Positions 2,414-4,384 of a DNA stretch of 64,000 bases are shown piece after piece. A model generated the notes under the pieces. The model saw only the letters and a list, made by a program, of their open reading frames with translations, had not been told where the DNA came from and made no database searches. This DNA comes from Lysinibacillus sphaericus (GTDB lineage: Bacteria > Bacillota > Bacilli > Bacillales_A > Planococcaceae): assembly GCF_006864135.1 (NCBI RefSeq), contig NZ_SADV01000003.1:186001-250000 (forward strand). The letters are read 5' to 3'. Position 1 is the stretch's first letter, and each line of letters starts with the position of its first letter. Made by a program: the position numbers and the translations under genes.

Positions 2414-2629
2414 ATGTTTGTAACTCATTTCTATGAAAACAAGACGTCCGTTTTAAGTCAGCTGCTCGTAAATTTACCTTCTGTCGAAGAGAACATTAAA
2501 ATTAAAGGACGTAAAGCTAAAGTTGTTCAGATTGTTCAAATAGACGACAACAACTATCAGGTAAGTATCATTTTTGAAAAAATAGCTAAAAAACAACCAT
2601 TAAAAGAAATTGGCAAGAAAAAGAGATAG
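2414..2629 (+). CDS. Small basic conserved-looking protein of unknown function
   Basis: A 71-residue protein that is Lys-rich at its C-terminus (KEIGKKKR) and has no signal peptide or membrane segment. The ribosome site AAGGAGAAGG sits directly before the ATG and a clean terminator follows, so expression as a single gene is likely. I do not recognise the family. The middle part, with alternating hydrophobic residues (AKVVQIVQIDDNNYQVSIIF), suggests a small beta-rich fold. The long structured leader hints at regulated expression. Confidence 0.6.
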   Translation: MFVTHFYENKTSVLSQLLVNLPSVEENIKIKGRKAKVVQIVQIDDNNYQVSIIFEKIAKKQPLKEIGKKKR

Positions 2630-2650
2630 CTCTTCCCTATTCACCTTCGA

Positions 2651-2675
2651 CGCTATCATTTAATGATAGCGTTTT
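2651..2675 (+). terminator. Intrinsic terminator after the 71-codon gene
   Basis: CGCTATCAT and ATGATAGCG form a perfect stem with a three-base loop (2651-2671), followed by TTTT. Confidence 0.85.
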
Positions 2676-2760
2676 AACTTTAAAAAAGCGGGAATCGAAC
2701 TATAAGAGAAAAATACACTGCGAATTATTCTCAACGATAAAATGCCTTCAAGAAAAGCAT

Positions 2761-2793
2761 TTGACTTTTTAATTGATAACAATTATCATTATC
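2761..2793 (+). promoter_or_regulatory. Sigma-A promoter overlapped by a Fur box
   Basis: TTGACT (2761-2766), a 17-bp spacer and TATCAT (2784-2789) form a strong vegetative promoter. GATAACAATTATCATTATC (2775-2793) matches the 19-bp Fur consensus at 17 positions and covers the spacer and the -10. Binding of Fur with iron would block this promoter, so the transcript should appear only under iron starvation. Confidence 0.8.
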
Positions 2794-2795
2794 GA

Positions 2796-2902
2796 TAGAT
2801 TATTTCTTACTCCGAAATGCTTAGTTCAGCATCCCCCTATTTTTTGAAATAAGCATGTATCAAACGGATATTCTTACATCAGACTAAGAATATCTTTTTT
2901 TT
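2796..2902 (+). ncRNA. Candidate Fur-repressed small RNA (FsrA-like)
   Basis: A start about seven bases after the -10 would give an RNA of about 107 nt, ending at a perfect terminator: GATATTCTTA (2867-2876) pairs with TAAGAATATC (2885-2894), then eight T. No ORF with a ribosome site lies inside. ATGCTTA (2817-2823) pairs with TAAGCAT (2850-2856), leaving a loop that contains the C-rich stretch ATCCCCCTAT (2831-2840). This layout (Fur box, about 100 nt, unpaired C-rich stretch, terminator) is that of FsrA in Bacillus subtilis, which base-pairs with ribosome sites of iron-using enzymes. Homology to FsrA is inferred from architecture and has not been aligned. Confidence 0.65.
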
Positions 2903-2992
2903 AACTTTTTTCAGCAGATGTTAAGAAGTTTAATTCTCCGACGGATGTTTAATTAATTGGAGAGATTTACATAAATAAAGGAGCTGTTTTAC

Positions 2993-4384
2993 ATGGATTA
3001 TCGTATTGAAAAAGACACTATGGGTGAAATTAAAGTACCTGCAGATAAAATTTGGGGTGCTCAAACGCAGCGCAGTAAAGAAAATTTCCAAATCGGAACA
3101 GAACAAATGCCTATTGAGCTAGTTCAAGCAATGACCATTTTAAAGAAAAGTGCTGCGATGGCCAATAATAAATTAGGTAAGCTTTCATATATAAAAGCAC
3201 ATGCGATTGTGCAAGCAGCAGACGAAATTTTAAAGGGTCAATGGGACGATCAATTCCCTCTTGTAGTTTGGCAAACTGGTAGTGGTACACAGTCAAATAT
3301 GAATGTCAATGAGGTAATTGCTCACCGTGCAAACCAACTTTTACAAAATGTTGGCGAGGCTGAACGCATCCATCCAAACGATGATGTCAATAAATCTCAA
3401 AGCTCAAACGATACCTTCCCAACGGCTTTGCATATTGCTGCAGTGTTAAAAGTTGAAGATTATTTACTGCCGCGACTACGCTTACTAAAAGAAACACTTG
3501 ATAACAAAGCAGAAAAATTTAAAGATATTATTAAAATTGGTCGTACACATTTACAAGACGCTACACCTTTAACTTTAGGTCAAGAAATCAGTGGCTGGGT
3601 AGCAATGCTTGCTAAATCTGAGCAAATGATTGTCCAAAATATTGAATATATGAAGGAATTAGCGATTGGTGGAACAGCAGTTGGTACGGGTATTAACGCA
3701 CATCCCGAATTCGGTGAGCGTGTAGCAGCGGAAATAAGCCAATTAACAGGAAAACATTTTACTTCAGCTGCAAATAAATTCCATGCACTGACGAGTCATG
3801 ATGAAGCTGTTGTCGCACATGGCGCATTAAAGGCTCTTGCAGCTGACTTAATGAAAATTGCCAATGATGTTCGCTGGTTAGCGAGTGGTCCTCGTTCTGG
3901 TATTGGTGAAATAACGATTCCAGAAAACGAGCCAGGCTCATCTATTATGCCTGGTAAAGTAAATCCAACTCAAAGCGAAGCGATGACCATGGTTGTTACA
4001 CAAGTTGTTGGTAATGATGCAACAATTGCCTTTGCCGCTTCCCAAGGTAATTTTGAGCTAAATGTCTTCAAACCAGTCATTATCTATAATTTTTTACAAT
4101 CAACTCGTCTACTAGCAGACACAATGAAATCATTTAATGATCATTGCGCTGTCGGTATCGAGCCAAATAAAGAAGTACTTAACCATAATTTACAAAATTC
4201 ACTAATGCTCGTAACTGCATTAAACCCTTATATCGGTTATGAAAATGCGGCAAAAATTGCGAAGAAGGCCCATAAAGATGGCACAACATTAAAAGAAGCA
4301 GCGATTGCATCTGGTTTACTAACAGAGGAACAGTTCGATGAATATGTGGACCCTGCAACGATGATTTATCCAAATGTAAAATAA
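2993..4384 (+). CDS. fumC: Class II fumarate hydratase
   Basis: A full-length 463-residue homotetrameric fumarase of the iron-independent class II type, which interconverts fumarate and malate in the TCA cycle in the cytosol. The superfamily signature [11 protein letters not shown] lies near residue 320. The fumarase-type [13 protein letters not shown] (near residue 100) and [10 protein letters not shown] (near 187) are intact. An AAAGGAG ribosome site precedes the ATG. The gene lies 90 bp after the terminator of the iron-responsive RNA; any read-through would make fumC partly iron-responsive. A terminator follows at 4553. Confidence 0.97.

Follow-up and report, generated by a model that had tools for sequence, protein, structure and literature searches.

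The locus upstream of fumC

The window (the whole 64-kb stretch of Lysinibacillus DNA analyzed here) carries, immediately ahead of a class II fumarase gene, fumC, a sigma-A-type promoter overlapped by a Fur box, a putative small RNA of about 107 nt that we call sRNA1, and a predicted intrinsic terminator (Table 1). The promoter, TTGACT-17-TATCAT at 2761-2789, scores 10/12, and the transcription start of about 2796 is an inference from the position of the -10 element. Fur sites were scored against the 19-mer and the 7-1-7 Fur consensus sequences. The box over the -10 element is the top 19-mer site within the window, in which sites of at least 15/19 number three, against a mean of 0.83 per 64 kb of first-order Markov sequence. 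The second, Fur-like box reaches at least 10/14 in 21 of 25 sRNA1 loci (raw count). Farther upstream lie a 71-aa ORF (2414-2629), which is near sRNA1 in 23/25 loci and belongs to no Pfam family, and, on the minus strand at 1092-2114, a trypsin-like serine protease (Pfam Trypsin and Trypsin_2) with an N-terminus that looks signal-like by eye.

Table 1. Features of the sRNA1-fumC locus (window coordinates) and the sRNA2 copies of the same genome, G000 (contig coordinates).
Feature	Position	Strand	Basis or remark
Second Fur-like box TGCGAATTATTCTCA, upstream of promoter	2719..2733	+	11/14 against 7-1-7 consensus
-35 element TTGACT	2761..2766	+	TTGAC[TA] in 25/25 loci
Fur box GATAACAATTATCATTATC, overlaps -10	2775..2793	+	16/19; kept in 25/25 loci
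-10 element TATCAT	2784..2789	+	Kept in 25/25 loci
sRNA1, ~107-nt small RNA	2796..2902	+	Unit kept in 25/25; fold z -3.0; no conserved ORF
5' pyrimidine stretch UUUCUUACUCC (other species' counterpart, UCUUUUCUCC)	2803..2813	+
Hairpin 1, presents C-rich loop	2817..2856	+	3 pairs changed on both sides
Proposed seed AUCCCCCUA	2831..2839	+	Perfect complement of UAGGGGGAU, citB ribosome site
Intrinsic terminator, stem + U8	2866..2902	+	Predicted fold, alignment
fumC Shine-Dalgarno AAAGGAG	2977..2983	+	Read from sequence
fumC, class II fumarase	2993..4384	+	Pfam Lyase_1 + FumaraseC_C
sRNA2, 168 nt	G000:C5:49900-50067 (L039:5901-6069)		Fur-box RNA, loop ACCCCCCUCAU
sRNA2, second own-genome copy	G000:C26:35544-35710 (L128)		Fur box; loop ACCCCCCUUAU

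Conservation and predicted fold of sRNA1

A 238-base query covering the locus (2755-2992) was searched in 41 genomes, 25 of which are of the same genus: the window's own genome (G000, 5.12 Mb) and 24 relatives. All 25, own included, gave a match. In 22/24 relatives the start of the best match falls at query position 4-7 (the -35 box is at position 7), and in 19/24 the match stops at 147-158, the terminator; several relatives have a separate short match to the fumC ribosome site. When the loci were set to the same orientation, the unit from the -35 element to the U-tract could be aligned in every one, with TTGAC[T/A]...TATCAT as the promoter form throughout. The named contigs matched by a pattern for the sRNA1 terminator were all from Lysinibacillus (16/16), and a plasmid search returned no match. 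In a 200-genome sample of the family, model R1 (sRNA1) matched 28 of the 29 same-genus genomes; its matches outside the genus, in G107 and G183, are marginal, both are without a Fur box, and they were rejected. G187, the one same-genus genome of the sample in which R1 had no match, keeps sdhC and the second RNA described below, and is without fumC (weak partial matches only) and without a full-length citB, a gene found at full length in 30/31 same-genus genomes. These losses are not independent evidence, because sRNA1 adjoins fumC.

The predicted folding energy of the 107-nt strand is -19.3 kcal/mol, and none of 200 shuffled sequences folded as low. In the predicted structure the C-run at 2833-2837 sits unpaired in a 14-nt loop, and the U8 tract (2895-2902) lies directly 3' of the terminator stem, which is shorter in the window strain than in most relatives (TATCTTT in place of TATCCGT). 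The loop reads AUCCCC in 25/25 RNAs and AUCCCCC in 24/25. A module in the 5' part of the RNA, UUUUCUCC, is intact in only 14/25 copies, and not in that of the window strain. The three both-side pair changes in hairpin 1 were reached by 2/500 shuffles; the terminator has none. Across the 25 loci we found no conserved ORF. The best frame, ten codons reading MYQTDIL[TK]SD, occurs in 18/25 with no ribosome site seen upstream, and a coding function was rejected.

A first-pass annotation had proposed a near-consensus sigma-A promoter, a transcript of about 107 nt with an unpaired C-rich hairpin loop, a terminator ending in U8, the absence of an ORF, and a position beside fumC, and all of these are borne out by the alignment and the predicted fold. 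Its Fur box does overlap the promoter, at a score of 16/19 and not the 17/19 it had given. Judged by these features, sRNA1 is a real, functional-looking small RNA gene conserved in Lysinibacillus.

A second Fur-box RNA family

The search with the sRNA1 locus query also brought up another Fur-box promoter, elsewhere in the window's own genome, which belongs to a longer RNA that we call sRNA2 and that the first-pass annotation had missed. It is of the same design as sRNA1 and in its own genome has no fumC beside it. sRNA2 could be aligned in 25/25 genomes, with four predicted hairpins; the loop ACCCCCCUCAU, which carries ACCCCCCU, and a hairpin with CUUUUCUCCA are both present in all 25, and CUUUUCUCC forms a second module. 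Both-side changes occur at 7/45 pairs, six of the seven in the terminator. At neither RNA locus does any Rfam family reach its gathering score; lax thresholds gave only matches far below gathering.

sRNA2 is the more widespread of the two. Model R2 (sRNA2) matched 76/200 family genomes at E <= 0.01, namely 29/29 of the same genus and 47 others, spread over 13/19 genera by tally, or 12 once G208 is dropped. Of the 47 matches outside the genus 25 were inspected by eye, together with G226 from an order-level search, which listed only genomes of the window's family and so is uninformative on other families. Twenty-four were credible and carry a box of the Fur type, which is weak in one G072 copy out of two; the matches in G208 and G226 have neither Fur box nor C-run and were rejected, as were three same-genus sRNA2-like copies (G014:C2, G003:C3:119695 and G006:C1:2233839) that are decayed or lack a Fur box. 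Several genomes carry extra or decayed copies of sRNA2, and some have two strong matches. Tandem pairs spaced 64-71 bases apart were seen in G055, G072 and G087, all of one genus (g32).

R1 and R2 each find the other's locus as their best non-self match, at E 2e-4 to 4e-4 by a rough calibration; for R2, sRNA1 outscores every other non-self match in 43.8 kb, at 21.3 bits and a likewise rough E of 2.6e-4. The region of sRNA2 with which sRNA1 can be aligned is its 3' part, and the sequences suggest that the two are probably distant paralogues.

Candidate targets

The first-pass annotation had suggested looking for G-rich ribosome sites complementary to the C-rich loop, and those of citB and sdhC do match, with moderate specificity. 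The citB site reads AGGGGGA in 30/30 Lysinibacillus loci (AGGGGGAU in 29/30, AGGGGGAA in L223), and the sdhC site AGGGGGG in 29/30 (GGGAGG in L199). The sRNA1 loop of the window strain is predicted to form nine perfect pairs with citB, at UAGGGGGAU, in a duplex of -15.0 kcal/mol, and the sRNA2 loop eight perfect pairs with sdhC, at AGGGGGGU, in a duplex of -15.7 kcal/mol. Opening the mRNA sites would cost 3.2 (citB) and 2.4 (sdhC) kcal/mol, and opening the RNA loops 0.3 (sRNA1, window strain) and 0.9 (sRNA2). When RNA and leader are folded jointly, citB is predicted to pair with the loop of the window strain's sRNA1, and with the CUUUUCUCC module of either the consensus sRNA1 or sRNA2. When the loops were compared together with their flanks, sRNA1 paired more strongly than sRNA2 with citB in 24/24 genomes (G013 left out); on sdhC sRNA2 was better in 13/24, so that neither RNA was consistently ahead.

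We ranked these pairings among 372 leaders of the own genome, taken from the window itself, from sampled stretches totalling 400 kb and from four further loci of that genome. For the sRNA1 loop citB came 13th and sdhC only 46th, and for the sRNA2 loop sdhC came 7th and citB only 53rd; for each CUUUUCUCC module citB ranked 2nd (for sRNA1, that of the genus consensus and not the window strain's variant). The other top-ranked leaders belong to unannotated genes whose N-termini did not resemble those of iron enzymes. The loop matches are weakly specific, because this genome has many ATG codons preceded by AGGGGG (311 sites, versus 118 for the reversed pattern). An enrichment of TTGGAGAAAAG was also considered and rejected: in 5/6 genomes it was not markedly above the reversed control, the exception being G013 (10 versus 2). 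Taken as a whole, the loop complementarity to citB and sdhC is suggestive.

The citB leader has a further conserved element. A block, GGAGAAAAG, is present in 30/30 Lysinibacillus loci at roughly 45-65 nt from the ATG on its 5' side, and a 12-base complement, TTGGAGAAAAGA, joins this leader to the sRNA1 5' module. As decisive evidence for sRNA1 this complement was rejected, given that the module is not intact in 11/25 copies and that GGAGAAAAG is exact in 5/7 genomes counted as without sRNA2, where it may serve a hairpin of the citB leader itself; we retain it solely as a lead for sRNA2. Most of the genera examined, whether they have sRNA2 or not, keep the arrangement GGAGAAAAG...CCUUUUC 5' of the citB ribosome site (for example at L235, in the own genome). 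The two segments possibly form a leader hairpin, the 3' strand of which would also be able to pair with AGGGGG; an RNA bearing CUUUUCUCC could then displace this hairpin, upon which the leader would close its own ribosome site.

Across genera, 34 citB rows were compared, with G208 counted as without sRNA2 and two labels set by hand. GGGGG occurs in 26/27 rows with a credible sRNA2 (the exception is G051) and GGAGG in 7/7 without. This offers no independent support, because the site changes only once on the tree. At sdhC, GGGGG occurs in other genera both with and without sRNA2; the G064 stretch in that comparison is not its sdhC leader.

The connection to fumC

The fumC product is, by what is known of its family, presumably an iron-independent fumarase. 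The gene lies directly 3' of sRNA1 in 25/25 loci. From the U-tract to the fumC ATG there are 29 nt in L019, L020, L021 and L023 and 26 nt in L025; elsewhere the gap extends up to 215 nt, and it is 90 nt in the window. In the five short-gap loci the spacer holds little beyond the fumC ribosome site. Since a separate promoter would not fit into 26-29 nt, fumC must in these loci be transcribed either through or from within the sRNA1 gene. The first-pass annotation had suggested read-through into fumC; the constant adjacency and the short gaps agree with this, and a promoter embedded in sRNA1 is the alternative.

Considered together, we think it likely that 2761-2902 is the gene of a Fur-repressed RNA of about 107 nt whose loop would block the translation of iron enzymes, with fumC fed by the same unit. 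When iron is short Fur would leave the promoter, as its box implies, and sRNA1 would be made. Its open C-rich loop, AUCCCCCU, could then pair with the G-rich ribosome sites of iron-using enzymes, best with that of citB and also with that of sdhC, and this pairing would be expected to block their translation. sRNA1 would act beside the longer and wider-spread sRNA2, with its ACCCCCCU and CUUUUCUCC modules. The same RNA would also be the 5' leader of fumC, to which incomplete termination or an internal promoter would supply mRNA, so that the iron-free fumarase may be kept or raised while the iron-using TCA enzymes fall.

The invariable position of fumC and the five terminators placed 26-29 nt before its ATG would also suit an RNA that is mainly a cis-acting fumC leader, one that combines a Fur-controlled promoter with an attenuator hairpin and yields the short RNA as a by-product. 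We regard this as unlikely: the C-run loop is kept along with the terminator and is unpaired in the predicted fold, sRNA2 shows the same design without an adjoining fumC in the own genome, and the spacer differs between loci in both length and sequence outside the region of the fumC ribosome site. It is more improbable still that the stretch lacks any regulatory RNA function and amounts to a Fur promoter and a terminator, with a sigma-A promoter inside that serves fumC. A promoter-like pair, TTGAAA-17-GATATT, does lie inside sRNA1 at 2844-2872; it scores 9/12, however, and sites of at least 9/12 arise 9.3 times per shuffled 2.5-kb region, while the hairpin and loop are kept beyond what a promoter needs. 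The regulatory RNA gene remains our preferred reading of the locus.

Relation to FsrA and other iron-sparing RNAs

The first-pass annotation had likened the RNA to FsrA of Bacillus. In design the likeness is well founded: a Fur box over the promoter, a C-rich loop, no conserved ORF, and complementarity to citB and sdhC are all present in the sequence or the predicted fold. What the annotation observed at the locus stands as well; a kinship with FsrA is not supported. The Rfam FsrA model RF02273 exceeded its cut-off in 0/25 same-genus genomes and matched nothing in the own genome even with an E limit of 10 (under stricter filters), whereas it did exceed the cut-off in G037 and in one of 14 control genomes (presumably B. 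subtilis). An Rfam scan of the window found nothing at gathering, with FsrA absent from the lax-scan matches over 2500-3100, and neither R1 nor R2 detected G037's FsrA with E values of up to 10 allowed.

The FsrA locus is situated near ykuI/ykuJ. In G037 FsrA follows an EAL-like gene and is followed by catalase-like and YkuJ-like genes, with no fumC (names assigned by eye), unlike sRNA1, which has fumC as its neighbor in 25/25 loci. FsrA is described in the cited sources as an 84-nt, Fur-regulated, C-rich RNA with reported targets that include sdhCAB, citB, gltAB, lutABC, dctP and leuCD (PMC8464778, PMC12871923). leuC was rejected as a target here, since the five leaders read show no G-rich site, and this, together with the presence of two RNA families in one genome, sets the present system further apart from FsrA. 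That sRNA1 is nonetheless an FsrA orthologue drifted past recognition, as a comparable length (at most about 100 nt in FsrA), the Fur box, the unpaired C-rich stretch and the candidate targets citB and sdhC might suggest, is the least probable reading, in view of the RF02273 results, the differing neighbors and the failure of R1 and R2 to find FsrA. By the tests run, sRNA1 is best read as a functional counterpart of FsrA and IsrR, not a relative.

IsrR of Staphylococcus offers a second comparison. The cited sources present it as a Fur-regulated RNA with two Fur boxes and three C-rich regions, non-orthologous to FsrA or RyhB, with a list of verified targets that includes acnA and sdhCAB (PMC9410917, PMC11257911, PMC13343841); between them, PMC13343841 and PMC8464778 name citB and sdhCAB among the targets of both RNAs, for IsrR as verified ones. 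As described by PMC9410917, IsrR resembles the RNAs found here in its Fur control with two boxes, its C-rich loops, its hairpins and terminator, and in having aconitase and sdh among its targets; it differs in its length of 174 nt, its three C-rich regions and its reported conservation within Staphylococcus, and its second Fur box is 3' of the start site, whereas that of sRNA1 lies upstream of the promoter. It is by such descriptions that sRNA1 and sRNA2 are provisionally set apart from IsrR. RyhB and PrrF of proteobacteria share the iron-sparing logic, and their genes are duplicated in some species; unlike sRNA1 and sRNA2, with which they show no sequence match here, they act with Hfq (PMC9410917 and general background). 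A lax PrrF match (E 6.3) in the 2500-3100 scan covers only the promoter and Fur box. RyhB, PrrF, FsrA and IsrR are repeated, apparently independent inventions of iron sparing. Within the open-access literature, judged by title, we found no description of RNAs like sRNA1 or sRNA2 in Lysinibacillus or the Planococcaceae.

Implications

From its sequence, then, sRNA1 is likely a member of the iron-sparing kind of RNA, FsrA-like in design and in its likely targets, with an unusual place before fumC. Only tentatively would we go further and propose one iron-starvation unit with two outputs, an RNA acting in trans against aconitase and succinate dehydrogenase and a fumC mRNA made through a leaky terminator, which with sRNA2 sharing or dividing the targets would form a two-family system unrelated to FsrA and IsrR. 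With their predicted function, sRNA1 and sRNA2 would add two sequence families of the iron-sparing kind in a family of the Bacillales. Many genomes are available in which joint changes of seed and target sites can be traced, and the fixed place of sRNA1 before fumC provides a simple test of whether an iron-sparing RNA may also raise an iron-free isoenzyme in cis.
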